From the NCBI RefSeq assembly GCF_037975245.1, contig NC_092568.1, forward strand, positions 5,622,001 to 5,686,000: 64,000 nucleotides of DNA. The letters run 5' to 3'. The notes beneath the pieces were generated by a model. That model was not told where the DNA came from. It did no database searches and was given only the letters and a program-made list of their open reading frames with translations. Position 1 is the stretch's first letter. Every line of letters starts with the position of its first letter. Shown in pieces: positions 17,701-58,619 of the stretch. This stretch comes from Apostichopus japonicus. Taxonomy: Eukaryota > Echinodermata > Holothuroidea > Aspidochirotida > Stichopodidae. Position numbers and translations under genes: made by a program.

Positions 17701-20700
17701 CATTTGATAGTCTCTCTCATACCAAGGTGTGTCCAGGGAAGCTATTATCAGAAAATACCTCTAAGGGAATTAATACTGTATGTAGTATTTCACTACAAAG
17801 TGCTTTACAAAATGGACAAGTTGCCATGTAAATGTAAAGATGTAGACCACCGTGTTGTAGCTAATGACTCCCTGTCTTCATTTTAAGATTTGTATATATT
17901 CAACTTGAGAAGATTTTCAGGTTAACATGTACTGGTGTTTTTTTTTGGTCATTTGATAGTCTCTCTCATACCAAGGTGTGTCCAGGAAAGCTATTATCAG
18001 AAAATACCTCTAAGGGAATTAATACTGTATGTAGTATTTCACTACAAAGTGCTTTACAAAATGGACAAGTTGCCATGTAAATGTAAAGATGTAGACCACC
18101 GTGTTGTATTTTTCACTTTTTATTATGCGACATTATGTCATGTTTTGTATGCTTCAGTGTCATTTAAGCCTTTGTTATTTTACATTTGTTGTAATATGTT
18201 TCTTCTTCAGGAACAAAGTATGACGCGAGTCATTACAATGCACTGCTCAAGGTGTATCTGCAGAATGAACATGACTTCAAACCCACAGAGTTCTTGGCCA
18301 ACATGGAACAGGATAATGTGGAACCAAATAGGGTAAGGCTAACTCTAAATTTAACACAATACTCTTTACTGTACTATACACCATGTATGTATGGATGGAA
18401 TTGTAATCCAACGACTGATGTAACATTTTAATTTATTTTATGAATGAATATATGGTTCAATGCCTAGTGTGTTGACAGCATTGATTATGAGGATATTAAT
18501 TTTACCACAAGCCTTTACAATATTTGCAAAGCTATAGCAATGCCCTTTGCCCTGTAAAATTTCTAAGGAATGTATATAGTCTGGCAGGGAAGAAAAACAT
18601 TCTTGAATTTTTATTTCCTTGTTGATTAGCATGTATTTTGCAACATTTTTTAGGAAAAGTTATTTCCAAATGAAAAAGTCTGTTGATTATAGTTTAGATT
18701 GTTTTTGTTTTTGTTTAGTCGTACTAAGTAAGACAATCCTAGAAATCTTCTTAACTAGTTCATTTCTTTGAAGGTAACCTACCAAAGGTTGATCAGTGCC
18801 TACTGTCTGAAGGGAGATATACCAGGTGCAACTCAGATCCTAGAGTTTATGAAGAGCAAAGACCTACCTGTAACGGAAGGAGTATTCAATTCTCTAATAA
18901 CTGGCCACGCTAGATCAAAGTAAGTATTTTAACATTTCTAAAGGGACCGACACAAAAAGACTGCTGGATACCCTAAAAATGACATCAAAGTTGTACAATA
19001 TTACAAGTGTCTTTCAGCACTTTGTTTTGTACAAATTTTGAACTACCTGTTTACTTGGTGTTTGTAATTTTGTGACATTCCTTGTGTTCTCAAGATTTGT
19101 TAAAGACATACAGTATACTGAGCATTGTGAGCAAGTCAGTCGTTACTGGATTTGTACCAAAAATCAATTTTTCTTTTAAGCTTCACTTTATATATATGTA
19201 ATACCTCTAATTGTATAATGCATGCTATGACCTAAGTTAGCTTGACAAGGATAAAGGGATTTCTTTGAACATATTCTAATTGTCTTACAGAAAGCATAAA
19301 CCACTTCAAAAATCACTTTTATGTGACTTAACATTTTAAGTTACTAACATACTTTGCCTCTTTGCATACATCTTTAATTATCTGAGAAAAATGTATGAAA
19401 GAAAAATTCCAGGAAATCCAATTTGGTATTTTTTATACAGTTTGGTATTTGTATGAATTGGTATATATCATACAGCTTAATCAAATGTTACTAATGAATG
19501 TAAATTAAATATGAACTGTCTGACTCTTTGACCTCTCCTAGTGACATGGAGAATGCCAGAAATATCCTGAATGTGATGAGGTAAGAAGAACACAAAATAC
19601 TACTGTTAATCTGATTGGTAGGAAGAGGCATGGAAATGGAAAAGGAAACATTGATGCTTTGAAATGCCTGAAATTTTTGGTTAAAAATGAAGACTGTTTA
19701 ATTGTGAAATAGATTGCTAATATGTCTTTAAAGTAGTTATTCATCATATTTAGTCACAATTATACAGATCACACTGTTTGTGTGTGGAGACTGTACAGCT
19801 GGACACAGACTTCTGTGTGTCAAAGAATGGCTATACTCAGTTATAATTGAATAATGGAGTAAGTAGCAAAGGAGGTATTGTATCCTTCATAGAATGTACA
19901 GCTGAGACAATTTACAACAGGGATTCTCAAGTAACTTTCTATGAGGTCAAGAGAAAACATTGGCTGGACCAAAGGTACTAAAGCATATCCCAACACGTGT
20001 TGATTTGTCTTGGCACATTCCACATTGAAATCTTTCTCTTGTGCTGATTTGGCTAGCAGGCCAACTATTGAGAACACCATGATGAAGGATGTATACTTAG
20101 ATGTTACATGATGAGCTATTCTGATCAGCAATAGAGAAGAGATTAGTATATGAAAGGATGACCAACTTGAATGGTCCACATTTAATAGTGTTTCAACTAA
20201 TTCCTTTGAGTGCCAAAAGCTGCATTCACTAGCCTTAATGTTAAAGCGGTATATTAAGTTTATTCATAAGTCTCAATTTTAAAATATAATTCAAATTTTT
20301 CAGTGCAAATAATTATGAAAAAAATAAATATTCAGTGTTTTATTTTGGCATCATTTTGATGATAAGTAATCTGTCAACCTACTTCTTGAGGGTTGTATCC
20401 TGATGTTCATTCATTGCAAGGCATTCATACTTGCAGGCGCGTAGCCAGGAATTTGCCATGGGAGGGGCGAAACTGTAGATTCGGCATTGCAAACTATCTA
20501 AGCGTAGCGCCACCATGGTTGGCGAGAAGCGTACAAGAAAATTTTGGCTGAAAATGCCTCCCAGATTGCTGATCGCTTCCCAGGCCTTGGAAGTTGCATC
20601 TTAGCATTTTCTCTTTTGAAAATACTAGCGATATCATAAAAACATTTAAAAAAATTAAAAAATATGCACGGGGGGGGCAGCTGCCCCCTTTGCCCCCCCC

Positions 20701-29700: not shown

Positions 29701-32700
29701 TAAGCTATGTGAGAAATATTGTATTGTGCAGTGTAGGGTTGGGCGATATTTGCTTTTTAATGTCACGATAAATAGTTCAAAAATTATCGCGATATTTCGA
29801 TAATTACGATAATTTTTTCTTGTTGTTTTTAGTGTGTTCGCGAACACACTAAAAACAACTGCCGATTTCCCACCGGTGTATTCGCGCAGCAAACACACCG
29901 GGCATAATGGTGTGGGGTTCAGGGCCCGCCTTAGAGCCCCGTTGGGGTCAAGGGGTGGAACCCCTTGTAGGGGTCCAGGGGCGAAGGCCCCCGGAAAAGT
30001 TAAGTATTTTTTCGTGTCTGGTGATAAAAAATTCGCAATTGAGGATTCAAAATACTGACTAACTTTATGAATTTAAATTGTCACGAAACTGATGAGAGTT
30101 TTAAAATGACAAGTTAGAGTAGCTATATTATGTGATAAAATGAAAAGAGAATTAATCTGTTTTACAATCTTTATAAAGTTTAACTTACAAAACTGTCGAT
30201 ATTATGAAACAAACTACGTGCGGCAAAGCCCCGTTTCTAGACTGCCTAACAATCAGTTTACAACTGCAGTGTTTAACCGTACTTAAATATCACGGTAGGC
30301 TACAATGTGCTTCAAATTTTCTCAGGTACCTTGCAAAACAACCCCCCTGTCTAACACCTGTTTGTTAACATTTTTGGCACGGTTCCAATAAACTTTTCAT
30401 GGAGTAAACTTTTTTGGCTCCACTCTAGAATTAATTAGGTCAGTCAGTAAAGGATCCGTAAAGTTATGCGAAATATTATCTTAGATGTTCAAGGAAAGTA
30501 GATAAATATCCCCGTAACATTAAGGTAAGTAAAACACCACAAGCCAACCGACTCCTCCGCATGAACAAAACAATCTATTCCCCATGATACACGAAGCACA
30601 GTCTATACCATACAGACATACTGAAGCACGATATCAAGGCCCCAATAGCTACAGTATGGCCATCTTTATGAAAGTAAACCTTGTAATTCCATGTTTTAGG
30701 CCTCCAGGCGTGATTAACTTAATGCTAAATATTGTTTCCATGTCCTTGTAGAAATCGTCAACTTCGCAAAATACAATTAGTTGTGTTTTTGTTGTTACGT
30801 GAGATCTGTAACCGACGAAGTGGTTAGGCTATTTACTATACACTTAACTATGGTAGGATATTATTATTATTTTTTGTGTGTGGAAATTCTAGAAAATACT
30901 TTCTTTCTCCCGCTTTACACCAGATGTGGTCTTCTGGTTTATTCATAAATGGGTGTACTAGAGCCTTGTTTACATGACACTTGTTGCATTTAGCACGATA
31001 TGCCAGTTTCGCATGAATTTTTCGAAAGTATTTTGCTCGATCTTTCGTAAAATTAGAAAGGTTTACCAACTTACTGTTCGTACACAATTGGTTATTTCTC
31101 TACTGATTTTCAGAGTTTTGTTCTCTATACAGTCAATGTTGTAAAGAACGGGTTTTTACGAAGTTCAAAAGTCAGTAAATGAAGTTGATAAAATATTTCT
31201 TTTCAACTTTCTTAACCATGGAATGCTAGAATAACATTTACACATAAAACGGAGAATTTTTTTTCTACATCTATTTCAAATTTCTTTCACAAGAAATTAT
31301 CGTCATTTGTTCAATCCTCAAAAAATATGGTCTTGAAAAAAAATTATCGCGATAATAATAATTTTCGATATATCGCCCAACCCTAGTGCAGTGTCTATAG
31401 ATAAGCCAGGCTTGGAATGTGTTACTTCATTCTAAGGTCTACTTGTTAAGTACTGACAACTGCTCTGACTCAGATCGAGTCATTGACTTGGATGGAATTA
31501 GTGACTCAAGTCGAATCTCATTTGAGCAGAATCTGTGACTGGAATTAGTGACTTGAGTAGAATCTGACGTCAGTGAAATCGGTGACATGAGTGGAATTAG
31601 TGACTCAAGTGGAATCTGACATGAGTGTAATCAGTGACATGAGTAGATTCTGACATCAGTGAAATCGGTGACATGAGTGGAATTAGTGACTCAAGTTGAA
31701 TCTGATTTGAGCAGAATCAGTGACTTGAGTGGAATCTGACGTGAGTGAAATCAGTGACATGAGAGGAATCAGTAACATGAGTGGAATTAGTGACTTGAGT
31801 AGAATCTGACATCAGTGAAATAGGTGACATGAGTGGAATTAGTGACTCAAGTGGAATCTGACATGAGATGGAATCTGACATGAGTGGAATCAGTGACTTG
31901 AGTAGATTCTGACATTATTGAAATCAGTGATGTGAGTGAATCAGTGAAGTGACTGAAATCAGTGACTTGACTGAAATCAGTAACACAAGTGGAATAAGTG
32001 ACTCGAGTGGAATCAGTGACTCATGTGGAATCTGATTTTTGTGGAATCAGTGATTGGAGAGGAATATGACTAGAGTGACTTCAGTTACTGTACTTTCTAT
32101 GTTGGGTAACAACATAAACTTCTGTCTTTATAACAACACTCTATGGTAGACTCACCAGTCTTGTATTCTTTTTTTTAAGTGAATCTCTGGAATGTATCAA
32201 TATTAAAATAACTATCACAATGTACATGTATATAAAATTACCCAAAAGTATTGTCTACAAGCTGACATAAGTAACCAGGGGTACTTTTAAATATCTTTTT
32301 ATTTTCCTGGCCGTAAAACATATATCAAAGATCTGTTCTGAATATTGATTGATTTCAGGATGTGGATGTAACTGAATTGGATAAACTGTGTTCAGATTTG
32401 AAAGAGAAGAATGCTAACTACAGGTCACCTTTGAGGGCGTTGTTGCTGCACCACTGCTCGGCGAATGTGAGTAACAATAACAAAAATGTATAATTGTTCT
32501 GTACTGCTTGGCAGATTTGAGTAACAGTAACAATAATGTGTAGTTGTTCTGTACTGCTCTGCAAATGTGAGTAACAATAACAACCTTGTATAATTCTTCT
32601 GTACTGCTTGGCAGATGTAAGTAACAATTATAACAATGTATAATTGTTCTGTACTGCTCGGCAGGTGTGAGTAACAGTAACAATAATGTGTAGGTGTTCT

Positions 32701-35700
32701 GTACTGCTCTGCAAATGTGAGTAACAGTAACAATAATATGTAGTTGTTCTGTACTGCTCGGCAGATGTGAGTAACAATAACAATAATGTGTAGTTGTTCT
32801 GTACTGCTCGGCAGATGTGAGTAACAGTAATATGTAGTTGTTCTGTACTGTGTAACTTTACTACACACTTGAAGCGATATGGTAGAGTAAATTCAAGAGA
32901 ACAGCCTTAAAGATTTATGGGCACAACAATGACAAAGGCATATGGTCAGAGCATAAACACAGATAAATAACATCATAAACAAAACTATTAACCAAAACTA
33001 TAAAATGAAGCATTTAATTACTTAACAAATTAATGATATTTCCATGCAAAAAAATACTATATAATTAGTCAGTATTTGACTAGGTTGAAATGTTTTGAAA
33101 CCAAGAAAAACTCAGCAATTATTGTTTTGTTTTTTTCCTCACGAAGTAACAAAAGTCAATGAGATGCACAAAACGTACTGCTTTATGATGTATTATTTAC
33201 CGATTGTTATATTTATATATTTTATATATTTATATACTCAACAAATCCCAAAATGAAGGAAAGATGAGAAGCATATTTAATACATGTTCTAAGTCACTTC
33301 ACAACCATGATATTCATGTTTAGGTGAACATTTTACATTTTGGCTAAATTGTTTTTCATCCGGTAGAATTACGATAAAGTGATGGAGCTGAAGAAAGAAT
33401 TTGACGTGGCAGGTTACGACCTCACCGGTGCTATGTATGCAGCTATGATCCCGATGTGTTGTAAAGTAAACAAAGTCTCAGAGGCTCTGCTGATCAAGAA
33501 ACAACTGTAAGTAACAAACTTTAAGCCACTATTAAAACTCCTATATCTCCAGAGTTCTCTTAACAACAGAAATATCAGAAACACACAACAACAACAAAAG
33601 CCAAAAGTTTCCCAATCTGAAAGTGACACAAGCTTTTCTAATGTGCGTATTGATTATTGAATTGTTTTCAACTTTTGCAGACTAGTTTGAATCAGACAGT
33701 CATATTGGTTAATTGATCATTCCAAATGAGTAGTCAATATTTCTGCCTTGAAGACAGTCCTTCAATTTCTGATCTGGAAGTCTGCTCAGTCCAAATTATG
33801 GTCCATAAATCTGAAGATGATTCTGAAGTAGATATGTGGAGAGAGTCTTAAAATGCTATCCAACTTAAGGTGCAAGAAATTAGACTCCTGTCATATTTCA
33901 GTGGGATTATCTTACAGATAGATGTGTTTGCTTATTAATAGAGTTGTAATTCCTTTGCAAAAACCTTTTGTTTTAGAATATCAGATGGTAATCACTGGAA
34001 GCATTTTCACTCATATCTTTTTTCTTTCTTTTTATCAAAAGGAAATTATGTTGCACTTATTACAATAAACTTTCAAGAAAGTTCATGTGCAGCACAGCTG
34101 TTGGTTTGAACAAATGAGTTTGTTTTATAGGATATTAATTAAAATGAATGAAAATAGCAGAATCTCTCAATAACCTGAACGGTTCAGAGAGCTCACTTGA
34201 ATCTTTAGAATTACCTCCGGAACCGTGTTGATCAAGGGGTAAGAAAAGAAACTTTTAATCTGTTTCAATATCTTAGATCATGAAAAGCAAGTGAATGGGT
34301 TTAATACATACTTACCATAGTTCTTAAGTGAGCATTTAGGTCTTGGGTTTTTCTACCATAATTTTTGTAAATAATTTTCATTGTGTGTTTGATCTTCTCT
34401 ACAGGAAAGAGTTTGATCCAAGCTTTCTTCTGGACATAACAAAATATCGATATCTGATTGCTGAACTGGCAAGAAGTAACCAGACAGAAGGTAATGAATA
34501 TTTATAAATAATAGTAAAATATAGCGTATGAATATTCATGAAAAAACAACATCCTATAATGAGGTGACAAACATCAGGGAACATTTCCATCACATAGAAA
34601 GTGATGAGAATCTAAGAGAAGCGAGACAGAAAATAGGCATAAGTAGTGAATATCATCAAATAGCAAATCCAATCATTAGGTAAATGAATAGTGGAATAAT
34701 TGTTATAAGTGCACAAGAAGTAATGAATATTTATGAACAATGCAAATAACTGACATCATGTTTGTAGTAACATAGTATATAATAGTACTTATACTTTCCT
34801 GGATGTGCACAGTTTTAAATTTCTAATTTTGCATAAGTAAGAAAGGTGAGACTTGTTGGTTACGACATCAGAAATTGTTTTTGAAATAGTTGTTAAATTC
34901 TTTGGGGTCAATTTTCAGATATTATACCACTTATTGAGGAGATTGAGTTGTTAAATTCTTTGGGTCAATTTTCAGATATTATTCCACTTATTGAGGAGAT
35001 TGAGTTGTTAATTTCTTTGGGTTAATTTTCAGATATTATTCCACTAATTGAGGAGATAGCAGAGCTGAATGTTGATCCAGATAGACTGGAGAAGAACATG
35101 TTCCATCTGATGAATGACTTGGCCAAAGAAGGACTCACTGAGCAAGTCCAGCTCATCTTTGATAATCTTGCCTCTAAGGATATCATCAAGGTTTCCAGTA
35201 ATCTAATTGGACCATTAATCACATCCTACATAGTAAGGTGAGCAAACTACATAGTAAGGTGAGCAAACTACATAGTAAGGTGAACAACCTACATAGTAAG
35301 GTGAGCGTCCTACATAGTAAGGTGAGCAACCTACATAGTAAGGTGAGCAAACTACATAGTAAGGTGAACAACCTACATAGTAAGGTGAGCATCCTACATA
35401 GTAAGGTGAGCAACCTACATAGTAAGGTGAGCGTCCTACATAGTAAGGTGAGCGTCCTACATAGTAATGTGAGAATCCTACATAGTAAGGTGAACAACCT
35501 ATTTAGTAAGGTGAACAACCTACATAGTAAGGTGAGAATCCTACATAGTAAGGTGAACAACCTACATAGTAAGGTGAGCATCCTACATAGTAAGGTGAGC
35601 GTCCTAGATAGTAAGGTGAACAACCTACATAGTAAAGTGAGCGTCCTACATAGTAAGGTGAACAACTTACATAGTAAGGTGAGTATCCTACATAGTAAGG

Positions 35701-38700
35701 TGAGAATCCTACATAGTAAGGTGAACAACCTACATAGTAAGGTGAGTATCCTACATAGTAAGGTGAGCATCCTACATAGTAAGGTGAGCATCCTACATAG
35801 TAAGGTGAGCAACCTACATAGTAAGGTGAGCATCCTACATAGTAAGGTGAGCATCCTACATAGTAAGGTGAGCATCCTACATAGTAAGGTGAGCATCCTA
35901 CATAGTAAGGTGAGCATCCTACATATTAAGGTGAACAACCTACATAGTAAGGTGACTATCCTACATAGTAAGGTGAGCATCCTACATAGTAAGGTGAGCA
36001 TCCTACATAGTAAGGTGAGCAACCTACATAGTAAGGTGAGCATCCTACATAGTAAGGTGAGCATCCTACATAATAAGGTGAGCATCCTACATAGTAAGGT
36101 GAGCATCCTACATAGTAAGGTGAGAATCCTACATAGTAAGGTGAGCATCCTACATAGTTAGGTGAGAATCCTACATAGTAAGGTGCACATCCTACATAGT
36201 AAGGTGAGCATCCTACATAGTAAGGTGAGAATCCTATATAGTAAGGTGAACAACCTACTTAGTAAGGTGAACAACCTACATAGTAAGGTGAGAATCCTAT
36301 ATAGTAAGGTGAGAATCCTACATAGTAAGGTGAGCATCCTACATAGTAAGGTGAGCATCCTACATAGTAAGGTGCACATCCTACATAGTAAGGTGAGCAT
36401 CCTACATAGTAAGGTGAGAATCCTACATAGTAAGATGAGAAACCTACATAGTAAGGTGAGCATCCTACATAGTAAGGTGAGCATCCTACATAGTAAGGTG
36501 AACAACCTACATAGTAAGGTGAACAACCTATTTAGTAAGGTGAACAACCTACATAGTAAGGTGAGAATCCTACATAGTAAGGTGAACAACCTACATAGTA
36601 AGGTTAGCAACCTACATAGTAAGGTGCGCATCCTACATAGTAAGGTGAACAACCTACTTAGTAAGGTGAACAACCTACATAGTAAGGTGAACAACCTACA
36701 TAGTAAGGTGAACAACCTTCATAGTAAGGTGAGCAACCTACATAGTAAGGTGAGCAACCTACATAGTAAGGTGAGCATCCTACATAGTAAGGTGAACAAC
36801 CTATTTAGTAAGGTGAACAACCTACATAGTAAGGTGAGAATCCTACATAGTAAGGTGAAAAACCTATTTAGTAAGGTGAACAACCTACATAGTAAGGTGA
36901 GAATCCTACATAGTAAGGTGAACAACCTACATAGTAAGGTGAGTATCCTACATAGTAAGGTGAACAACCTACATAGTAAGGTGAGCATTCATAATCATAG
37001 CATTCATAACTTTAAGTGACAACCCACATCTAACTAAGGTATCAAGGAGTATTAGTGGTATCCCACATGTTAAGGTGGGGAACTATTACTATAACATACT
37101 GAACTATTAGAGACAAACCACACAGTAAGTTGGGCATCTAACTATAGTATCCAGGAGTATTAATGATATCCCACTTGTTAAGGTGGGCAGCTATTATTAT
37201 TACACACTGAACTGTTAGAGACATTCCACACCGTGGGCTATCTGTAACCATAACATTCTGAACTATTAGTAATAACCGACATATTCAGGTGGACATAAGA
37301 TACCAAACTTTTGCTGACACCCCACATATTAAGGTGGGCATCTGTAGATATAACACCAAATTGTTAGATTAACCTGCACAGTAAGGTGGGCATCTGTAGC
37401 TATATGCATCAAAGTGAAACCCACACAGTAAGGTGGGCATCTGTAGCTATAACACACCCAAATTGTTGGTGAAACCCACACAGTAAGGTGGGCATATGTA
37501 GCTATAACACACCAATTTGTTAGTGAAACCCACACAGTAAGGTAGACATCTGTAGCTATAACACACCCAAATTGTTGGTGAAACCCACACAGTAAGGTGG
37601 GCATATGTAGCTATAACACACCAAATTGTTAGTGAAACCCACATATTAAGGTGGGCATCTGTAGCTATAACACACCAAATTGTTGGTGAAACCCACACAG
37701 TAAAGTGGGCATATGTAGCTATAACACCAAATTGTTAGTGAAACCCACACAATAAGGTGGGCATCTGTAGCTATAACACACCCAAATTGTTAGTGAGACC
37801 CACACAGTAAGGTTGGCATATGTAGCTATAACATACCAACTATCTGTTATATCCTTCTTAGTAGGGTGACTATCTGTAACTATGATATACCTTCACTATT
37901 AGTAAGACAGCATGAAACATAACGCTTCTTAGTGATTGACTTTACTTACACATCTAACGTTAAACATTTCAATGTTTGTTATTTCAGGGATGATATGACT
38001 GGTGCTCTTCAGTGCATCACAGACTGCCAGACAAAGTTTAAGATGATGCCGTTATTTCATGACCTACTGGTTCGACTGGTGGAGAAAGGCAACACCGAAC
38101 AGCTGCAAAAAGGTACGGTACTTTCAGAATAATTCAGCAAGAAAACCTTCCTTGTAAAACGATTTGTTGTACTCAGAAATCCTTGATAAGGCCAACACAG
38201 GTTAGCTACAGAGAGAAAACCTTGCTAGTTAATAAGGCCAACACAGATTAGCAGTTGTACCAGCGTGAGGCTTATTGAGCAGATTTTGCATTTTCTTGAT
38301 ACCATTCTAAAGATTTCCTTCAACTTCTTGAAAAGTTACTCTTCAATTTTAAGTTTTATCAGTTTTGTTGGTGCAGATTCATAGAGAAACTGATCTTTTG
38401 GTTTGGAAAAAGGTTACGGTTGGGTTAATGAATATGGGAAAGTGATGGTTTCAAACTGTTATACGTCTAAATATCTTGTCAGAAAAACTATGAAAAGATA
38501 CCCTTTGATATTTTCCAAGAATAATTACTCTTTTTAACTTAAACTTCGCTCATTTTTTGTAACTTTAATGTAACATCAATGCAGTTGGAAATTGAACCTT
38601 GCTGATCATGTGACCTAACTTTAAAATTAGGCTCCCTACTCTGATCTGATCTAAAGACCAGACTTGAATCATTTCAATTTGAGAGTTTCATCTCAGTGAT

Positions 38701-41466
38701 TATTGATGTTTTTTTTATTGCTTTCAGCTATGGATTTTACAAGTGAGCAACATGGTGACATCAACATGTTGTATGACCTCATCTTTGCCTTCCTCACTGC
38801 TGGAAAACTAGCAGAAGCTCAAAAAGTCATTGAGGTTAGCCAAGTAGCTTTATTCTATTTTTTTTAAGCTCTTTACCATTCTTATTGTTATTATAAGCAT
38901 AAACTGAGTTTTGGTTGCTTAGAATTGAAGTTTGTTGAATGTTCCATTATTAGTATCATAAAACAATAAGACAAAACGGCAGTGACATTTCAAATTTGAG
39001 CGTTGGATGCAGCTGGAAATGATATGTAACATGTGAAAGTTCCAGTTTTACTCTCATGTGATACAAAAGCACTTAACATTGTAATATGAATATTTGAGAC
39101 ATATCTCGGAGTGAGACGAGCTTTTCATCTGTGGTTTCCAGACTGACTATTTCTTAAATCACAGCATTTCAGCCTGAGCAAGAATTGTTTAAAATTGAAT
39201 TGAAACCTGTAAGTCTGGTTGTATCCACTCAGACACATGCACACATAGACATTCACACACACAGATGGACACACAGACACACACATGAGGCTATGTTACC
39301 AGCAGATATGATTAAGTAATGGATCTCTGATATGATTCTTGTATCCTTTCTTGGTGATAGACTCCAGGTATGGTTGCTAGGGACAGAAGATTGCAGTGGT
39401 ATGCAGAGAAGTGTGTCTCCACTCAGCAGCTGGAACCACTTCAGAATCTTGTGAACATTACCAGAGATCTTTATAATTGTGATAGAGATAATATGTACTT
39501 CTTCCTAATTCAATACCACGGTAAGGTTAAACAATTATTGATGTGTGTGGTCTGTTTTTTCATTTGTCCCAAGAGGTTTCCCTTCTTACTCTTGTAATGT
39601 GAGTGTTCTGATATTCTCATTGTCCAATCAATGTTCTGATATTACTCAGCCCTGTTAGTGTTCTGATGTTATGAAGTGCTGTGAGTGTTCTGATATTCTC
39701 ATTGTCCAATCAATGTTCTGATATTACTCAGCCCTGTTAGTGTTCTGATGTTATGAAGTGCTGTGAGTGTTCTGATATTCTCATTGTCCAATCAATGTTC
39801 TGATATTACTCAGCCCTGGAAGTGTTCTGATGTTATGTAGTGCTGTGAGTGTTCTGATATTCTCATTGTCCAACGAATGTTCTGATATTACTCAGCCCTG
39901 TTAGTGTTTTCATGTTATGCAGTGCTGTGAGTGTTCTTATATTCTCATTGTCCAATCAATGTTCTGATATTACTCAGCCCTGGAAGTGTTCTGATGTTAT
40001 GAAGTGCTGTGAGTGTTCTGATATTCTCATTGTCCAATCAATGTTCTGATATTACTCAGCCCTGTTAGTGTTCTGATGTTATGAAGTGCTGTGAGTGTTC
40101 TGATATTCTCATTGTCCAATCAATGTTCTGATATTTCTCAGCCCTGTTAGTGTTCTGATGTTATGAAGTGCTGTGAGTGTTCTGATATTCTCATTGTCCA
40201 ATCAATGTTCTGATATTACTCAGCCCTGGAAGTGTTCTGATGTTATGTAGTGCTGTGAGTGTTCTGATATTCTCATTGTCCAACGAATGTTCTGATATTA
40301 CTCAGCTTTGTTAGTGTTCTGATGTTATGAAGTGCTGTGAGTGTTCTGATATTCTCATTGTCCAATGAATATCCTGATATTACTCAGCCCTGTTAGTGTT
40401 CTGATGTTATGCAGTGCTGTGAGTGTTCTGATATTCTCATTGTCCAATCAATGTTCTGATATTACTCAGCCCTGTTAGTGTTCTGATGTTATGAAGTGCT
40501 GTGAGTGTTCTGATATTCTCATTGTCCAATGAATATCCTGATATTACTCAGCCCTGTTAGAGTTCTGATGTTATGCAGTTAATCAGTGTGAGAATCTCAC
40601 GAAACAATAGAGGCACTGTGTGTTTGAGCTAGCCGCCAAGATATTCATCTGTACATTGTTTGTCAATACAATAGCTTCAGTTAAGCTGCGAGATCACGCA
40701 AAGGGTTGCCTGTCTTAGTACAAATCCTTCTCTACATGTAACGGTACACAGAAATACCACTTAAACTATAATTGCTTATAAGGTAAATATAGTCTTATCG
40801 AAAAGAACAATATGCTAAACGAACCCACTAATGAGTGCAAAGTTGAAAGTATAATCTACCACTGTCAAAGGCAGAGGGAAAAACAAAGACGTGTGACAGG
40901 ACACTATGGCCAGTGAAATGTATAACGTACTTTAAAAGCAAAAACAAATCAATCATGACGTGTCAAAACTACAGATATGCATCTCAAATCACCTCCTAGC
41001 CTGATCACACGTGTATGCAAGAGCTCTTCTGTGCATTTGCGATTTTATGTGCCTATCACATCCAGGAATGTCAGTTTTCAACTACATGGGCCTTCAGCCA
41101 ATATTGCGGCTATATACCGCAAAAATTGCACAAAAAATATCGTCAGTTTATATATTTTTTATGTGATGAATAGATCATGTAGCCCTAAAAACAAACAGGT
41201 GTGATTGCCGAATTCCCGTTTGGCGGGTGCGATCCCGGTTTCCATTTGCGGTTTCCCAAATTCAAATGCTAGATCAACGAACTACGTAGTAACTTTCTAC
41301 TTACGCAAACTTCGTTCATGTGTAAACAATTTTGCAATGTACAGACATGCACGTTTGATAGAATCTCGACAAGTTCCCATAAAAAACTTTGAAAGTCAAA
41401 GGTAGAGCTGTGTCACTTTGAATTGATGAAAAACAGGTTTTTAAAATCATATAAACATTGTATATA

Positions 41467-41515
<49 letters not shown>

Positions 41516-43171
41516 ACCGGTGTCTGTATGAAATTTTGTAAAATGGATACATTACTCATAAATCAGGCGAATGAAATCTAGAAATAGCTTCAGAAATCGG
41601 TCGGGGTAGATGGAACACAGTCACGTAATGAATGGGTTTGAGTTACATTGTCTGTAACAACAGCTTCAGTTTTGTTTTGGAGTTACAAACAATTTTGTGA
41701 TTTTACGTATGAAATTTTTACAGGCAATGCAAACGATCCTGACACATCAGGCAGAATTCAGACTTTATCAATTGATGCATCGGCAGTTTTGTATTATCTT
41801 AATAATCCGTCGTTTATTAACATGTAATAGAGCTGAGGTGCATCCATTGTGGTTGATGATATTGCTGTGAACGTTGTCGAGATCTCGCAAGTCCTTTGTA
41901 GTCACTGTTATGCAGGAAGGTTTGAGATCTTGTGAAAACAATTGACGATTGCCCCAAGTGTTTTCAATACCATTGGATGTTCTTCTATTATTGTGCCATA
42001 AATGTTGTGATATTACTCAGTGTGGTGGGTGAGTGACATTCTGATATTACTCAGTGTGGTGGGTGAGTGACATTCTGATATTACTCAGTGTGGTGGGTGA
42101 GTGTTGTGATATTACTCAGTGTGGTGGGTGACTGTTCTGATATTACTCAGTGTGGTGGGTGAGTGTTACTCAGTGTGGTGGGTGAGTTATCAATATTATT
42201 AACAGTTGACAATTCTTCACCTTGAAATAGCAATTTATATGTTTAAGAATGTGGCATGTTTCCAAGGAATGTATTCCACCTTAGACAATTGTGACCCACC
42301 TCAGACAATGTCACCCAACTTAGGGCAAATTCCTACCTTAGGAAATTTTACACCTTAAGCAATGTCAAGACAATGTTTTCCACCGTAGAAATAGCAAGCA
42401 CAGACTGAATTGTTTGTCTGCTAGATAATAGTGTATAAGTTGAATAAAACGTAGTAGACAATCGTGCAGTGATAGTGTGAACGACGCCATGTCACAGCAA
42501 AGAGATGGACAAGCGCCTCACACCCCCCATCCCCCCCATCCCCCCCATCCCCCATGCTTTAATCTGTTTTTCAGACTTAGTCCCTAGAAGTCATAAAGTG
42601 GTATGTTGATTGTTTCACAGCAAGAGCCCGAGATGCTCAGAAGTGTCTTCAGGTGTGGACGGACATGCAGGAAGAGGGAATCATAGCGAAAGACCGCACC
42701 ATGAGATACTTGGCTAATGTCCTGAAAACAAGCAACTTACCGGTACCATTCCAAGTACCAGAACTACCTCCTAGAGATGAGACCACTGATAAGGTTTGGC
42801 ACACTTAATAAGATTTCAAAGATTATGACAAAGTTAATCATTATTGAAGCGATTATTAAGCAAGGTTTGTTCACCAAGCCTTTGTATGGTTCAGTCGGTT
42901 ACAGACAAAAGGTCACATGTTAAGGTTCATTTTCCAAACTGGTATTAAAGTTTAAGGTTTTGTGGTACAAGCTGTTATCCTGTTGAATGGTTCATTTTCC
43001 AAACTATAATTAGATTCTACGGTTCATTTTGAAGCTGTTTATGTTGTAACAATATTTTCCAAGCCACTTTCTGTCTTTTCCCTTCTGGGATTTCAATTTT
43101 TTTCTCCATTCAGTCTCTAAAGTGAGACAAGCAAATTTATGCAAAGAATTACAAAGAAACTTGATAAGATC

Positions 43172-43227
<56 letters not shown>

Positions 43228-46200
43228 TCTATGTTGTGACTTAATATTTGTGTAAAACTTTGTATGATCTGCTGTCATTCTCCTTGTTTATTGTTGTTTT
43301 GTGTTTCAAGGCTTTTTCTGGAGAGAGCAGAGAAGCCAAGAGTCCAGCAGCAGTAGCCCATCGTGGAGAACATCCAGTTATTGTGCTATCCAAAGCAGGG
43401 GTAAGGATTGGGTGTGGGACAGTTATAAACATTAAATGGGCTTGTCAGAGAAGACCTAGCCAAATTAGGTTAACTCATCACAACCTTCCAGTGATAAATC
43501 AAATTGAAAATGTTAATAAGAAGCCTTCATCATTTGTATCTCATAGCTTTGATGACCATAGTCATTAAATTGAATTCTTAATCAGTTGTATCTCATAGCT
43601 TTGATGACCATAGTCATTAAATGGTCCAAAGGATGAATTGATTCAGGAAAGTGTTTTTTAACTTTTCAAAAGAAAGGAAAGGGCTGTTTGTCATGAATGT
43701 GATATCTAGGTCAGTATTAACATGATTGCAATCTACATGTGCTACTCAGTATGTAACCTTTTCTATGTCATGTTGGTTCTTTGCTCAATTTTATCTTTTT
43801 TTCTTTCCTTTCTTTTGTCTTTTAAGAATTTTGTTGAAGCAGAGAGGCAGCTTGAATCTAGCCAGGAAGCAGGAGAAGAGGTTCCTCTAGGTGTCTATAT
43901 GAACCTGATGTGGGAACATCTTAAAAGGGGAAATATTGAAGAATGTATGCAATATAAAGAACAGTGAGTATATATACTATGAATATGCATGGGGTATGGT
44001 AATTAGAAGTTAAAGGAATATCATCTTTGTCATAATTACTTACAACTGTGTGTTGGTGCTATGTATAATGTAGATAATAAATGTATGCCCCATGAGGTAC
44101 AGTTAGGTGATTATAAAATGACCTGCTATGAATATGCATAACATGATAATTAGAACATCAAAAATATCAACTTCATAAATCTTGCATGGAATAATGCTAT
44201 ATATTGGATGTGAGGTTAAGTATATAACTGATTATTAATATGCATTGGTTGTGAGGTAAAGTAAATAACCGATTATTAATATCATAACACAAGGTGGGGA
44301 ATGGGCGGTTTTATCAACTACAACTACAGTGTTAGTAGAGGTATTAAACCAATCACGGTGACATAATTTTACATGTGACCTAAAACAGCACCATTTGTTA
44401 AAATGTTGTTCAGTGTGTGGGGTTGAGTGGGGTTAAGTCTATGGGACAAGGGTCAAGGCTGAGTAGTGTTGTGCTCAGATGGGTCCTTGTTTGACCAGCT
44501 GACACAGATTTTCTGCTAGTTTTGGGCAGTTTGTGAACATTTCTGCTGTCCTATATTTATGTCAATGTCATAGTGATCTTCTTTTTTTCAACTTCACAGA
44601 TGTCAAAGATTTAAAGATTTTATTGTCTCAAAAGATTTCTACAACCGACTGGTCATAGAGTATGTGAAGAAAGATGATTTGGAAAGTGAGTATTTCACAA
44701 GTTTATTGTGTCTTTGTTGGAAATTTGGTGATAGATTCTGCACCTGTTATTAGCTACATTGATCAACAGTAGTAATGTGTTATGCAATTAACCTCACTAA
44801 CATGGTTCAGTACATACAAAATATACAACAGCAAACAAACATGAAATGAGAGGGAGGGAGCAGATAGGTGGATGGAGGATTTAGAAGGGGGGGGGGGCAA
44901 GTGGATAGGTGGGTGGTGGAATTAAAGTTTATCATTTCAAGGATCCAAAAAATTTTGGACCTTTTCTGTTTCTTTACAAAATACAAACAAATACTTTAAT
45001 ATAATTTCAGGTATTATTTTGCATTTTCTGTTTTGGGATGAGAGGGGCAATGGCTCAGAATTAGCAAAATGGACCCCTAGGGTATCTCATCTTTGACAGA
45101 TAAAGTATGAATAGGAAAAATGAAACATAATTAGGGAAATTATTTTCACATATTGCACAAAATTGTATTACTGTGAGGTACACATCCATGAAGTCCCTTT
45201 TGATATATATATGTTCTGCAACAAAAACAATTGACCCATTCAGCAGATTTATTGGTTAAAGTGATTTGTATTCGAACATAGTCAGTATTAGTTTCCTCAT
45301 TGCCAGAGACAAACTTTGAATTTGTGATAATGTGTATTGGATCACGGTTTATAGTAAAAAGGCATTGTGGAAGCTGCCCTAAGTTAAGGTGCAACATAAA
45401 AGGCATCGTGGAAGCTGCTGCCCTAATTAGGTGCAACATTAAAGGCATCGTGGAAGCTGCCCTAAGTTACGATGCAACATTAAAGGCATTGTGGAAGCTG
45501 CCCTAAGTTAAGATGCAACATCAAAGGCATTGTGGAAGCTGCCCTAAGTTGAGATGCAACATCAAAGGCATTGTGGAAGCTGCCCTAAGTTGAGATGCAA
45601 CATTAAAGGCATTGTGGAAGCTGCCCTAAGTTAAGATGCAACATTAAAGGCATCGTGGAAGCTGCCCTAAGGTAAGGAGCAACATAAAAGTGTTGCAATA
45701 AGAGGAAACACAGAACAAACTTATTTGCAATTCCTTTTGGCTTTTTTTGGGAACATTAAATTTGAAATGTTATGGATCTTTTTAATTGATGTTTATTTCT
45801 CCAGATGCCCACAGAGTCTTTTGTGAAACCTTGGCCTCTGGAATACTTCCACTTGCTTCGGGAACTAAACTCCTGGCAGGAAAATACCAACAAATGGGAA
45901 ATGTGGAGAAGATGTTAGAAATCAAAGAAGTCTATGAGTCAAATACAAAATCTCTATTTCCAGCCACAAAACTTGTGTTGGCAACTTTTATTGGAAAGTA
46001 AGATATTTGGCCTTTAATAATATAATTGATTATGCTTTAAAGTATGAAATATATATATCTATAGTTTGAAACTTTCCAGTCAGATATTATTGATTTGCTT
46101 AGGTGATCTGAGTTTGCAACACCTTAGAAGATTTGACTTATACCATACCACAGATGCATCCTGGGAAGGATAGTGCATACTTACAGATTCATTCACTATG

Positions 46201-49200
46201 TATAGTTTTCAAAGCTCCAATTAAAACTAATTAATGTTGCCTAGGTGATCTGAGTTTACAACACCTTAGAAGATTTGACTTATTCCATACCACAGCTGCA
46301 TTATGGGAAGGATAGTGGAAGCTCACAGATTCATTCACTATGTAGGCCTATAATTTCCAAAGCTCCAATCAAAACTAATTAATGTTGCCTAGGTGATCTG
46401 ACTTTGCAACACCTTAGGAGATTTGTATTATACCATACCACAGATGCATCCTGGGAAGGATAGTGCATACTCACAGATTTCCACATTATCATTGAGTGTC
46501 ATCTTCGATGAGCTTACATGTCATCTGTCCATACCAAATCAATGCTGTGTAGTTTTATCATGTTGGCAACAAACAATGTGATGAATCACTGGTTTACAGT
46601 TAGTAAGGTTTCCCTCCAAAATAGGGATTAAGAATTATATTATGCAATACAAAGGCTGGCAGATTGTATAACACTGCTGCACATTAAAATGCAATACAAA
46701 ATGATGCTATATATACTGCCAACACTGGCCAGAATACTTAATTAGCTACTACAAGTCCTGATTTTCAGTGGCGTCGCCAGACATTCAATCTTAGGGGGCA
46801 CAGGGAGGGCACAGCACTTAATTAGGGGGGGAACAATGTTTATTTGTGAATGCTGTCCTGGGGGAGGGATCTAAAGGGAGGTTTTTTTTAATTAATTAAG
46901 GGTCTTTAGATGCAATCTGGTGCAATATTTTGCAACATTGAAGTAACTTTATATTCAAGAATTTTCGGGCTAAGTCTGTCCAATATTTATGTTTTTAATT
47001 GAGGCGGGATAAAAAGTTATACAAAACATGCAAATTAACCCTTTTGCTTTGATAATGTGGTGACATGCCACTGTTGATTATCATTGCTAGTATTTGTTCC
47101 TAAGATTTATTCAACTCCTTTAACTTGCAAACAGGAATGACATCACTGGTGCAGTATCTTTCATCGAGGGTGAGATTGCCAAACATCCCGATCGTTCCAG
47201 ACGGATGGGACTGCGTTCATTTTACTCCAAGCTCGTACAGACTAACCAGATGACAGATGAAGGTAAAGAGCCCCCTCTATTTGTAACATGTAGAGAGTTA
47301 ACCTATTGTCTGCTTGTAAGTCACTGATATGGTTATATATGACATATATATGGTGCCTTACCTTCTGACAATTCATTATTCCTTTTGATCTGTTCGTATT
47401 TCTGCTATCTTCACTTGCACGGTCTAGACTGTACAGTGAGTACATGTGGCAAGGTTTGAAGATGTCATCAAAACTTTCTGATTATAGAAAGATTCCTTGA
47501 TATTCTTCCATTCTCAGACTGACATAGTAGAACTGACCGTACAGATAAATTCTCACATTTTTTTCTTTAATAGCTGTAAGCTTTGCTGAGGATCAGCTGT
47601 CTAAGGACATTGATGGTCCTATTCTGGGAATTGTCTTTGCCTATCTTGATAATGACAAAGTGGAAGATGCCAAAATGCTAATAGAGGTAAGAAAGCTGCA
47701 AGGTGGTGAATGAGAGGGAGAAGGGGTGTGGGGAGGGGGGAGGGGGATGGGACCAAAATACCATGGAGGGTCATGTTCTTGTCTACAAGTTCAGAAACGA
47801 CATTAATTGTTAATTTCTGTTATTTGATATTCAACTCTTTATGTTCCTCTTAGCTGGTTTAGAGTAAACAATATCAACTGAAGCAGGAATTTTTATTCCA
47901 TGTATAAACAGAGACTGGAATAGTCAAATAACAGACTTAAAATGGCGAATTATTTTTAAATATTTAAATATTTTTAATACCAGTCATTTTCTCTGTAATA
48001 ATTTCTCTTTTTTATTTGCATAAGAAAATTCAGGGTCAGAAAAAAAACATGTAGAATTTTGTTTGGAGGTTTTTTATTTTCCTGTTGAAAGTGCATTGAC
48101 AGTATTATCTACTTGAACTGATTCTGCTATCAAGGTTACTCTACACATTAGCATATCATACCATGTTAGTTTCTTGCATTAATATCACAGCTGGTTCTTA
48201 ATTAGGGTTAACCCTAACCCATATTGTAAGTGTTTGCTATTTCTGAAAGCTCTGGTAATACCTGTTCCATGTAAGAAGCATAACAGCTTTATTGTGTGGT
48301 CCATTAGTGCTTTTATTCTTACTGTGCTTCAACTTGCGTATAATTTTCATGCATGAAGGGGTAACTTTGTTATTCTTGGTATTGATAAAAAGACAAATAA
48401 CCAGTCTTACCTTTTGTTGGGGGGAGGGGTTAAATATGTTAATAGCATTTCATGTGTTTGTGTGTATGAAACCCGTCCTACATAACTTGCATTGGCTTCC
48501 AGTTAGAGAAAGGATATCTTATAAGATTTTATTACTCACTTTTAAATGTATTTACAATATTGCACCGCAGTACCTTTGTAATTTAATTTCTCTTTACACT
48601 CCCTCTAGACCATTGCGTTCCTCGTCCCGTCTGCTTTTAACTGTTCCTAACATAAGAACTGCAAAATTTGGACCGAGATCTTTTAGCTATGCTTCGCCAG
48701 TTTTATGGAATTCACTCCCTGAGGTTTTAAGAAAAATTGAAAGTTTTACCCTTTTTAAATCCAAACTTAAGACTCATTTATACTGCAATGCTTATAATAT
48801 CTGAATTCATTTTATGTATTATTATTTTGTTAATTGTTTTCTTGTTATATATTTGTTTTACTGTTTTTCATGTAATTATTATATTCTTTTATCCACTATT
48901 TTTATTAACTTAATTTAACTTGAATTGTTTTGTTTTTTATTTCTACTTATTATTGTTTTATTCTTCATCATGTAAAGCGCATATGAATATATATATATGT
49001 TATAGTATTTGCGCTATATAAGGAACCATAATAATAATAATAATAATAATATGATTATTATGTTGCAAGAAGCCAGTTGTGTGTAAGACAGGAAACTCCC
49101 ACGTCCCCGCCAAACCTTAGAGCAACAAGTATGTTAGCTAGTTCATCAGCTGCTAGTGTCTCGACAGGAGTTAAAAACCTCAGCTTATTTTAGTCTATTT

Positions 49201-52200
49201 CCCTCTTTAATTGAAAACAAATACAAACACTTAGTTTAGTCCAGCAGCACATTCATATTAGATATGTACCATTTACCTTTAATGAGGCATAAGGGAGGGG
49301 GGGGGGAGGGTGACTGAGATGAATTTTTATCAACCACATACTTCTTACTTCAGTGAACATTGGTTCGGGAACTGGTGTGTTGCTGTATTGTAGTCGTAAA
49401 ACGTGAGTTTTGTCTTTAACTTTATTCATGTTTATCCGTCGTATTTCATTTACAGAAAGTTCCAGTGTTGAAAGAGAAGTCTTCTGCATTACTCGGCTAT
49501 ATAATAGACATGGTTGGCAAGGATGATCAAGTCGTAAGTCTTTCATATCTTATTGAGTAGAGTAAAAATGATATACAAAACTGTTTTGTTGTTATAATAT
49601 ATGTTTACATATGGTGGACTGCTACAGACTTGTCTATGGCAAGCCAAATGCCCAATAGTTTGATATCGACTGATAAGCTTGCAATATGGACCGATAATCC
49701 AGGTTTTTCACTCAATAATCCAGGTTTTAATAACCCATAATCCAAGTTCTCAATGGTAAACCTGGATTATCCACCCACTCCTACCAACCCATCTGCATTC
49801 CCATTACAAATTACCCACTCCCACCAATCTGTGTCCACTACCATTACAAATCACCCACTCCCACTAGCAAATCTCCACTCCCATAACAAATCACCCACTC
49901 CCACCATTCCACCAACAAATTTCCACTCCCATTACAAATCACCCAACCCACCAACCCATCTCGACTACTAGTGAAAATCACCCACTGCCACCAACAAATC
50001 TCCACTCCCATTACAAATCACCCACTCCCACCAACATATCTCCACTCCAATTACAAATCACCCGCACCGACAAATCTCCATTCCCATTTCAAATCCCCCA
50101 CTACCACCAACCAATCTCCACTCCCATCACCCACTCCCACCAACCCATCCCCAATACCAGTACAAATCCTCTTCTCCCACCAACCCATTCCCACTCCTAG
50201 TAAAAATCTCCTACTCCCACCAACCCATCTCTACTCTTAGTTCCTATACTGAAGCTGTATCTACTTCAGCTTTTCTGTATGTGACAACAGAACTCTTCTG
50301 TTTTTCTGCTATGTGATGAGGAGAATGAGACATACGCATTAGGTTCAATCTGCTGGTGATGGAATACTGGCAGCAAATGAACTTGAGATTTGACATTATT
50401 ATGAATGGCATTAATGCCTTCCTCCTCTTCTCAGCTACCCATCCCACCCCTAGCTGATTCCTCACATCTGTCTAAGCAAAGAATTCCTATTCTCTATTGA
50501 TTGTACATTGTAATTTTAATCTGTTTGCTCTTATCTTCTTTGTTCTTGCCAGGTTCACAGAATAGAGAATGTTCTCTCACTGACAGAGGGCCAGTCCTAT
50601 CTAGACAGAGAAAAGGTTTATTTCTACCTCCTAAAAGCCTTCGGTAAGGCTTTTGATTTTTACAGACATTTCAAAAACAGAGCAGCTTGATTAAAGTATT
50701 TCCACTCATGACCTTTAACAATTCACAACAAAGCAATCATTTGTCTGAAGGTGATTTTGACTTCTTGAAGAGATATAAGGCAGTTTGCAAAGCAACAAGT
50801 ATTGCGAACTGTTTTACAGACATATGATGGTGACATGGTGTGTTATAAATACATGCATATAGCACAGACAACTGATAGTGACATGGTGTGTTATAAATAC
50901 ATGCATATAGCACAGACAACTGATGGTGACATGGTGTGTTATAAATACATGCATATAGCACAGACAACTGATAGTGACATGGTGTGTTATAAATACATGT
51001 ATATAGCACAGACAACTGATAGTGACATGGTGTGTTATAAATACATGTATATAGCACAGACAACTGATAGTGACATGGTGTGTTATAAATACATGTATAT
51101 AGCACAGACAACTGATAGTGACATGGTGTGTTATAAATACATGTATATAGCACAGACAACTGATAGTGACATGGTGTGTTATAAATACATGTATATAGCA
51201 CAGACAACTGATAGTGACATGGTGTGTTATAAATACATGTATATAGCACAGACAACTGATAGTGACATGGTGTGTTATAAATACATGTATATAGCACAGA
51301 CAACTGATAGTGACATGGTGTGTTATAAATACATGTATATAGCACAGACAACTGATAGTGACATGGTGTGTTATAAATATATGTATATAGCACAGACAAC
51401 TGATAGTGACATGGTGTGTTATTAATACATGTATATAGCACAGACAACTGATAGTGACATGGTGTGTTATAAATACATGTATATAGCACAGACAACTGAT
51501 GGTGACATGGTGTGTTATTAACAGATGCTCTCAGTATCTCTGGCATACCATTTGCTTTAATACTTTATGACCAAGAACTTCAAGAGTGGGAGAAAATAAG
51601 GTGTGTTTGCCAAATGGAATGTTCGAAAGAGATACTTGTTGTTCAGATTGATGAAAGCATCTAAACTGTTCAATCCCATGACTGCTTGAGTGACTTGCTT
51701 TCTGTTACAGGTTGTAATGCTCCAGTGGATTTAAGATAGTCTAGACAAGACTAGGCTTTGTCTATTCAAGCTTAGCCAGATTCTTTCCATTGGCATGCAC
51801 TTATAAAATTACTCATTTGGAAAGAATGGAGGCATTTCTGCTGAAAGGGACCATTAGAGTAGGCTGCACCTATCAGTCAACATTTTTGTACAGCCTTTTG
51901 AATGCCTTCCCTTGATCTTCTCCATGTATGTTAAGTCTGTACCTACAGGTGGTCTTAAAAGTGATAGGAAAGCTTTAAAGTTATTTTGCTCATGTTATAT
52001 CACAACAACTAGTGTGATAAAATTGTGTTGTGTTACGCTGAATATTTCAACATGCCAAAACAATGTGCTTTTGTTGGCATGTAAAAGTTTTATGCAATAT
52101 GTGACATCTTGAAAAGAAACTCAAATTATTGAGATGTTAAATGCTAACACAGGATGTCTGTACCTTGTAAGATCCCTCCAATTATTGAGATGTTATATGC

Positions 52201-53637: not shown

Positions 53638-55298
53638 GAGATCGCTGACCGCGAAGGTTAGAGATAAATTCCACCAGAAGATTTTTTGAAGCCTGTTACG
53701 CAGCATTGAGGGAGTGTTTGTAAGGTGATCCCTGGTGATCCTTTAATCTCAAAGGATTAGAGAGCCTTGAACCATTATTACACTATCACAAATCCTTAAT
53801 CCAACTCCCAAGTCTCCAGCCTTGCTGCTGTTCTACATACTCATAATGATGAAGAATTGATTTGCTTGAGTTTGACAACAATGTCCTGTACTGCTATAGT
53901 TAAAGCACTGATGCTGAATACCATACCTGACTCCCTAACTGTTGCCAATAAAGAAGTTGGTTTGTACATCGTTTGATTGCCACTGTGTGTGGCACATTCT
54001 CAAGGAGAGTATAGAATGCTTTAAATTCTGTAACCGTTTTGTACCGTATTCAATGACTGTACTTTCAGCTTGTTCAACAGACAAAATTCAACTTCTGCTG
54101 GTATTATTATCAGGAACTTCAAGACATGACATTGGTCTGATGCGGTTACAAGGCTGTTTGGTTGGTAATATCGTTGCATCATTCTCACCATAGCAATGTA
54201 CATACCGTTCTTTTTTCCTACAGTATCTCTATCTTTCACAGTAGTGAGACATGAACCTACTAGAAAACCATTCTAAGACCTTTAGTGTCTCACCAGTTTA
54301 TTTGAACTGAAGTTTTTATGTCCAAATATCATTGGTGTAGTTTTTGGAGTAGACTAAAGTAATTTCATGGTTACAGTGAGTCATCATTCCACTATTTCAC
54401 CAGCATGTTGCAGTTAATTCAAGGCAAAGATGGTTTCTTGATACAAAGAGTAAGTGGTTTAAGCTTCTCTTCATGCAACTGTTTTAGCTTGGTATGGGTT
54501 AGCTTTTTGAGGTTTGAGTTACCGTATCAAAAACAAAACAGCACACAACAGGTCTGGTCCCTTCAAATAGAAATTCTCCAATTGTCTTAAGAATGGTCAA
54601 CTTTTTATTGGTACTGTTGTAATGTAAGGCAAGTTACTCTGTTGGAGTTTTAAGCATATAATAGACCCCCACCCCACCCCAAGAGAGTAAATACTGTATA
54701 TTGAATTTGGTTGTAACTGTCACTCTGAGCAAACCATTTAAATATTCACACATATAATGGGATACACTACAATCTAATGTTAAAATAAAGGGATTGTGAT
54801 GTGCAAAGATCAGCACACAATATTATTCATTTAGTAATACTGTTTTTTTTTTACTGTTTTCATGTTGATCTGTTCCTTGTTGAAGTCAAAAGGAATCTTT
54901 GTGTTGGTGATTTGTGTTTGTAGGTTTGTGTGTGTGTGTGCATATGCATGTATTATATGTGTATGTATGAATGTATTTAGGTATGTATGTATGAAGTCTT
55001 GGCTTGTAAATGTCTGGCTTGTAAAGTCATAAAGTCAATGCTGGTTGATTGTCATACTTGGTATGTGGACGCAGTACAATGAATAAAAGACATGCATTGT
55101 TGAACGTAGGTCAAGATTTGTTAACGTTAGAAAACATTGCAACCTGATAGCTTCAGAAGCAAAGCTAGTTCAAACTGTCCCATGTGGTAACTCTGTTGGT
55201 GTTTCATTCACACAGAACCTGGAAATATTGTAATGAATGTCCTCATATAACACATGGCAAGGAATTGCAATGCCTGTTGGTTCTCTGGTCTAAATAAA
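53638..55298 (+). other. LRPPRC: LRPPRC 3' UTR and downstream polyadenylation signals
   Basis: AATAAA hexamers occur at 53947-53952, 54784-54789, 55082-55087 and 55293-55298. The first, 310 bp after the stop, is the most likely principal site; the others allow longer 3' UTRs. No frame here has a recognisable motif. A TG/TATG-rich run lies near 54925-54995. Confidence 0.55.
53947..53952 (+). terminator. Candidate LRPPRC polyadenylation signal
   Basis: Canonical AATAAA, 310 bp after the stop codon, with T/G-rich sequence (GTTGGTTTG, GTGTGTGG) just downstream as expected for a cleavage site. Confidence 0.6.
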
Positions 55299-55329
55299 GG
55301 CACTAATTAGTGTTGATATGTCAGCTTTA

Positions 55330-56280: not shown

Positions 56281-56934
56281 CTCTTCATACTCCTTAATGA
56301 GTCCTGCTCACACATAGAAGTCTCTCTTACAAAGTGACAGATAAAATCACTAGCTCCACCCAGAAGCTTCCTTTAGTTTGATACACAGTCATGTTGGGTC
56401 AGCACTACCCCTCCCTCTGTGATGGACTTCGAACGTCATATAATGGTAAGTCAGATAAAGATATATCTCTCTGCCTTTTAACAATCTAATCCCATCGAGA
56501 TAAGGAGACGCTTAATAGCGCTGTAAACTTCACTCTTATCAATAAAGTGGGCAATATGTATCTGTGTACTAAAGAGTGTTAATTGAGAGGAGAAGATTTC
56601 GAACTGATTTTCCACTGATATTCCACTTTACTACTCTTAGAGTCGGTACATCGAAATGGAGGACTCTGATTGGTCAATTCTACCTACCACCTGATTATTA
56701 ATGAATGGTTTTAAAAAAAATGGCCTTGAGAGTTAGCGCAAATCTTCAGTTGCGAGACACTTGAAGACAGCACACACACACACTGTGATGAATGCACACA
56801 CACACTCGTTATATGTATGTTAACTAGCGTTTGTTGACGACTGTTCAACCTGAAACAAGACCACAGTGTATTGTGTGAAGCAATTACAACCTACATTGTT
56901 GTGAAAGGTACGGGAAACAAAGGGTGTCTACGGA

Positions 56935-57005
56935 ATACAAAGAGTGTCTACGGAATACAAAGAGTGTCTACGGAATACAAAGAGTGTGTACGAAAAACAA
57001 AGAGA
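56935..57005. repeat. 20-bp tandem repeat, about 3.5 copies
   Basis: GTGTCTACGGAATACAAAGA repeated, the last copy diverged (GTGTGTACGAAAAACAAAGA). Confidence 0.93.
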
Positions 57006-58551: not shown

Positions 58552-58619
58552 TGGTCTGAATGCTTTACTGTATCTGGGTGTATGACGCGAGGTTGATATA
58601 AACAGCCTTTATTCTTTGC

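Follow-up and report, generated by a model that had tools for sequence, protein, structure and literature searches.

The window analysed here, a 64,000-nucleotide stretch of the Apostichopus japonicus genome (contig NC_092568.1, positions 5,622,001 to 5,686,000 of the forward strand), includes part of the LRPPRC gene, in which the 5' splice site (donor) of one coding exon is the first unit of a 21-bp minisatellite with 84 units (Table 1; positions are those of the window). A phmmer search with the peptide encoded by 35033-35237 and 37988-38112 aligns it to residues 768-876 of human LRPPRC (8any) with an E-value of 4e-15; the join between the two exons is gapless, and the alignment has one gap elsewhere. 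The gapless join confirms the exon end at 35237 and the acceptor AG at 37986-37987 as genuine. An earlier note, made from the sequence without database searches, had already proposed the donor at 35238 as unit 1 of the array, and this assignment is borne out by the homology across the junction.

Table 1. Features of the LRPPRC locus, in order along the window; a slash marks the exon-intron boundary
Feature	Position	Strand	Basis
Upstream LRPPRC exon, the second with an amplified donor	32359-32466	+	join to 33367-33506
50-bp array, 7.6 copies; donor GT at 32467 (AAT/GTGAGT)	32453-32830	+	TRF, sequence
57-bp repeat, 3 copies, of the acceptor of exon 35033-35237	34888-35057	+	TRF, copies, translation
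LRPPRC coding exon (exon 23 in the earlier note, number unchecked)	35033-35237	+	phmmer against human LRPPRC
21-bp minisatellite, 84 units, 0 indels	35222-36988	+	TRF and unit list
Genuine donor GT, unit 1 (AAG/GTGAGC)	35238-35239	+	homology across the join, unit list
First in-frame TGA if the first donor is skipped	35239-35241	+	open reading frame 35026-35241
15 diverged copies of the 18-bp core of the unit	37066-37874	+	13-16 of 18 matches
Acceptor AG ending the 2,750-bp intron, followed by exon 37988-38112	37986-37987	+	homology across the join

The 21-bp array and its donors

Tandem Repeats Finder (TRF) reports the minisatellite with a period of 21, 84.1 copies, 90% matches, 0% indels and a score of 2729. 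In the register of the array start, the unit consists of 16 exonic and 5 intronic bases, CATCCTACATAGTAAG/GTGAG, and the final 16 bases of the exon (35222-35237) are the exonic part of unit 1. The 84 donor positions run from 35238 to 36981 at a spacing of exactly 21 throughout, in agreement with the earlier description of an indel-free array whose last GT lies 83 x 21 bases from the first. The lack of indels is not peculiar to this array, given that others in the window (50 bp, 7.6 copies; 82 bp, 12.0 copies; 48 bp, 14.6 copies) also show 0%. The units fall into 26 distinct sequences, with a divergence from the consensus of 0.066 differences per site, and a non-majority block of four units, units 13-16, is seen again as units 62-65. 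Compared with shuffled unit orders this recurrence has a P of 0.01, and it points to block exchange. A search of the A. japonicus assembly (671,581,487 bases in 35 contigs, the basis of all genome-wide counts given here) for the exact pattern AAGGTGAGC-N12-AAGGTGAG yields 27 matches, every one within the array; by this exact pattern, the LRPPRC array is a single occurrence in the genome.

The conservation of the donor is less uniform than the earlier note had it. GT is retained in 83 of the 84 units and missing from one, but AAG/GTRAG, which was said to be kept in nearly every unit, is exact in 50/84 only; GTRAG is found in 53/84, and 28/84 units have no G at position +5, the second least conserved column of the unit (67%). 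A second donor-like site, ATA/GTAAGG, is located 5 bases before the main donor (35233-35237) and is exact in 72/84 units; its use would shift the frame.

Unit 1 holds the first in-frame TGA, and therefore use of a later donor, or retention of the intron, would truncate LRPPRC at once. According to the unit list, TGA is found in 80/84 units and not, as had been claimed, in all of them; the conclusion drawn from that claim, that only the first donor would yield full-length LRPPRC, is nevertheless supported by the reading frame, since unit 1 itself has TGA.

Donors along the array were scored with a simple frequency matrix, with the U1 pairing energy as a second measure. By matrix score, 13 units are higher than unit 1, 37 (unit 1 counted) are equal to it and 34 are weaker; 49 of the 83 later donors thus score at least as high as unit 1. 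Among the 13 higher-scoring units, three (GTGAGT) also pair better with U1, and the other 10 differ by 0.17 bits. The earlier picture of dozens of equally good donors in competition is accordingly an overstatement.

These properties bear on the possibility that the array controls splicing or expression, many U1 sites slowing or varying splicing and diverting some LRPPRC transcripts to nonsense-mediated decay (NMD). The near-complete retention of GT, the 50 units with AAGGTRAG and the immediate stop that any later donor would bring are all compatible with such a role. However, position +5, which is key to U1 pairing, is among the most variable of the unit, so that selection holding all the donors strong is not supported; the segment 35180-35700 (521 bases), which covers the beginning of the array, folds no better than its shuffled versions (z +1.55; the fold is as good or better in 95 of 100 shuffles), so that RNA structure masking the later donors was rejected as well; and mirages, the boundary-spanning minisatellites of amphioxus, are reported to splice normally (PMC3087553, PMC3902484). 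A control function is therefore considered very unlikely. A coding role for the array was also dismissed, given that the long open frames (35202-36161 and 36162-37019) lie outside the frame of the exon. Similarities of the read-through sequence to the RPB1 subunit of RNA polymerase II, to an autotransporter adhesin and to other repetitive chains were taken as short-tandem-repeat artefacts.

Further repeats in the intron, the gene and the window

The 2,750-base intron consists mostly of repeats bearing the donor-like core, which are homogeneous beside the exon and diverged near the acceptor. The 15 diverged copies of the 18-bp core that follow the array are spaced 45-55 bp apart, with one step of 106, and are embedded in 53-54-bp repeats of the same intron; being parts of these repeats, they are not mutually independent. 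On the same strand, the remaining 60.7 kb of the window contain one site with 13 matches to the core and none with 14 or more. To judge from their divergence, the distal core copies would be older than the proximal array.

The donor described above is not the only amplified splice site of the gene. Upstream, a 50-bp array begins in the final 14 bases of the exon 32359-32466 and contains its donor. The join of this exon to 33367-33506 falls within one stretch matching human LRPPRC residues 662-736 (E-value 4e-8); in this search four designed pentatricopeptide repeat (PPR) proteins outscore human LRPPRC, which is possible with repeat proteins. On the acceptor side, in the 57-bp repeat preceding the exon 35033-35237, the upstream two copies supply decoy acceptors, with exon starts at 34919 and 34976, ahead of the real one (35033), and the decoys read in frame to a TAA at 35023-35025. 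This exon has decoy splice sites on either side.

Tandem arrays are liable to misassembly, and either an assembly artefact or a mistaken exon model could in principle produce such a picture. However, both LRPPRC splice joins agree with the human protein, and the A. japonicus assembly that this genome fits (671.60 Mb, 34 scaffolds) was built, according to PMC10344927, from HiFi reads with a mean length of 14.7 kb at 64x, far exceeding the 1.77-kb array, which makes an artefact of either kind extremely improbable.

Further arrays in the window (e.g., 39598-40579 and 42003-42187) show no overlap with any exon that could be placed. A 249-bp segment is present twice at 17605-18108 (99% matches), closely followed by PPR-coding sequence at about 18.2-18.9 kb; the repeat may represent another boundary duplication. 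A 41-bp array of 8 copies at 45358-45690, where no exon was placed, carries in its final copy the donor-like word CTAAGGTAAGG. No matches to LRPPRC were found in 45001-60002 of the window, which leaves the exons of the 3' part, past residue 1020 or so of the human protein, unplaced.

Recurrence in the genome and relationship to known repeats

The recurrence of such arrays was assessed in 160 loci around matches to PF00063 (myosin head) and PF00069 (kinase), drawn from 70 myosin-head and 134 kinase matches. The first 60 loci are the 30 best of each family; the further 100 come from the remaining matches, 33 of 40 for myosin (5 fell in loci already taken and 2 were omitted) and 67 of 104 for kinase, the latter picked for shortness, which favours exons of split genes. 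A donor crossing was defined as an array with a TRF score of at least 100 whose start lies no more than 75 bases ahead of the exon-match end and which runs past that end, and the expectation was derived from circular shifts of the arrays inside each locus. Donor-side crossings are found in 6 of the 160 loci against 1.58 expected (P 0.004, or 0.018 when one of the paralogous loci L105 and L106 is left out), and at a TRF score of at least 200 there are 5 crossings against 1.24 expected (P 0.005, or 0.03 minus one paralogue). Acceptor-side crossings at a score of at least 100 number 0 in the 160 loci, against 1.06 expected.

The six donor-crossing arrays have units of 53 bp (L005, 17.4 copies), 31 bp (L050, 15.9 copies), 28/62 bp (L087), 70 bp (the paralogues L105 and L106) and 42 bp (L140, 6.6 copies); the donors of L005 and L087 were placed by eye, and the others were called automatically. 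With the two donor arrays of LRPPRC included, the unit lengths are 21, 50, 53, 31, 28/62, 70 and 42, five of the seven not being divisible by 3, which would be expected of arrays that splicing removes. In L105 and L106, similar kinase loci in G000:C11, the unit consists of about 64 coding bases followed by the first bases of the intron, and the excised pieces end within the arrays. Donor-spanning minisatellites thus recur in A. japonicus, and a modest enrichment of arrays at the 3' ends of exons is likely. Elsewhere in the same assembly, the segment G000:C29:14745-31219 contains five cox1-like matches, which may be mitochondrial copies in the nuclear genome or residual mitochondrial sequence. 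The mitochondrial genome itself is contig 35 (16,099 bases); of the four genetic codes applied to its cox1 (2, 4, 5 and 9), code 9 alone yields the residues conserved in echinoderms, and its frames are ordered cox1, a short frame read as nad4L, cox2.

Boundary-spanning minisatellites are familiar from amphioxus, and the founding paper on mirages reportedly appeared in Nucleic Acids Research (NAR) in 2002. PMC3087553 and PMC3902484 describe amphioxus mirages in Adh3, the globins BflGb6 and BflGb9 and troponin C, with similar repeats in PGBD5; the units measure 10-72 bp in Adh3, 150-160 bp in BflGb6 and 157 bp in BflGb9, and regular splicing reportedly proceeds undisturbed by the arrays even though many units hold AG/GT. 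In view of this precedent, the earlier note, which was right about the tandem amplification of the real donor, overstated its case in presenting the choice among donors as wholly open.

The LRPPRC array resembles amphioxus mirages in that its unit spans an exon-intron boundary, the exon end being fixed by homology; splice signals are present in many but not all units; and several genes are affected, as indicated by the second LRPPRC donor and the sampled loci. The occurrence of arrays on the donor or the acceptor side and the range of unit lengths are shared as well. The differences are that the host is an echinoderm and not a cephalochordate, which is a taxonomic rather than a mechanistic distinction; that the array has 84 copies, against the 6 and 3 copies reported for two BflGb6 haplotypes; and that additional diverged copies are present in the same intron. 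Mirages are further marked by unstable length among alleles or in somatic cells; the LRPPRC array is known here from the sequence of one assembly. No echinoderm mirage was found among the matches listed in the literature searched.

Two other systems are related to a lesser extent. In intron gain by tandem duplication of an AGGT-bearing segment, described for potato RdRp, ATP2A1 and 24-bp repeats in fission yeast (PMC4974935), the duplicated segment likewise supplies splice sites. Unlike in that process, the acceptor at 37986-37987 of LRPPRC, in the context TATTTCAG/GGATG, includes no copy of the unit, so that the repeat is not found at both ends of the intron, and the duplication enlarged an intron but did not visibly create one. 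Ordinary intronic variable number tandem repeats generally share with the LRPPRC array the unit size, the copy number and the recurrence of unit variants along the array but, in contrast to it, do not begin with a unit that holds coding sequence and a genuine splice site. The LRPPRC array, hosted by an echinoderm, ranks as a large mirage, a sound case but not an unprecedented one.

Probable origin and tolerance of the array

With a probability of roughly 70%, the array is a tolerated minisatellite of the mirage type of which the first donor is the one used, donor use being predicted here from sequence features. The founding event would have been a tandem duplication spanning the last 16 bases of the exon and the first 5 bases of the intron, followed by growth within the intron, presumably through unequal exchange or slippage. 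The array would persist because a donor-spanning duplication should be silent provided that splicing uses the copy next to the exon. This copy would be transcribed first and would be the only one beside the enhancers of the exon itself, so that exon definition would favour it, and the occasional use of a later donor would lead to an immediate stop and NMD. Both this choice of the first donor and the clearance of errors by NMD are proposed on the basis of general knowledge. Acceptor-spanning duplications would be expected to be less tolerated because the first AG past the branch point tends to be used.

Several observations weigh against this interpretation. Some donors within the array score above unit 1. 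Exon ends show a modest enrichment that depends on the threshold: at a TRF score of at least 50, 6 crossings are found against 2.63 expected (P 0.04, or 0.12 minus one paralogue). Acceptor arrays are not significantly scarce (P 0.34; 1 against 2.07 expected at a score of at least 50), and one is present in LRPPRC itself. Intronless copies are among the 160 loci, and a donor was called in 91 of the 160. Finally, pairs of the strong donor word AAGGTAAGT located 12-42 bases apart number 77 genome-wide, against 119 for the reversed word (these are pairs, not separate arrays). Given that tandem AAGGTAAGT is no commoner than this control, donor sequence has no tendency of its own to amplify in tandem, and donor words were rejected as seeds of minisatellites.

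Some of these findings would also fit an explanation by chance, under which the introns of this genome are rich in minisatellites, some of which must overlap donors, and exon ends are special only in that arrays stop where coding constraint begins. Arrays cover about 10% of the flank bases (17,321 of 180,000 in the 60 large loci), and both the modest, threshold-dependent enrichment and the lack of a genome-wide tandem excess of donor words are in line with this explanation. The excess of donor crossings over the shifted arrays, significant at the threshold of 100 with or without the second paralogue, speaks against it, and so do the three boundary arrays of LRPPRC alone, although this gene was chosen for one of them. 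Chance is accordingly a serious possibility that nonetheless falls short of even odds.

Alternatively, exon-intron junctions could be hot spots of tandem amplification, for instance via co-transcriptional RNA-DNA hybrids or slippage at AGGT, with introns growing from their 5' ends, the young copies lying on the exon side and the decayed ones on the acceptor side. The homogeneous array at the exon and the 15 diverged core copies distal to it in one intron are compatible with this idea, as are the donor-crossing arrays at unrelated genes; however, the genome-wide pair counts, with no excess of tandem donor words, speak against it, and it is considered unlikely. A bolder proposal goes further, to a directional lengthening of introns at the 5' end through repeated re-amplification of the junction, older copies drifting toward the acceptor while the exon-adjacent donor is reliably picked from tens of nearly identical ones. 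This proposal is tentative and, on balance, unlikely; if true, junction mirages would be a general mode of intron growth in deuterostomes, beyond amphioxus.

With its 84 clean copies and 49 later donors that score no lower than the first, the LRPPRC locus is a natural competition assay for the choice of 5' splice sites, with position relative to the exon as nearly the sole variable. The array takes the occurrence of boundary-spanning minisatellites beyond amphioxus, into an echinoderm, and suggests a route by which introns may grow out of exon ends without damage to the protein.

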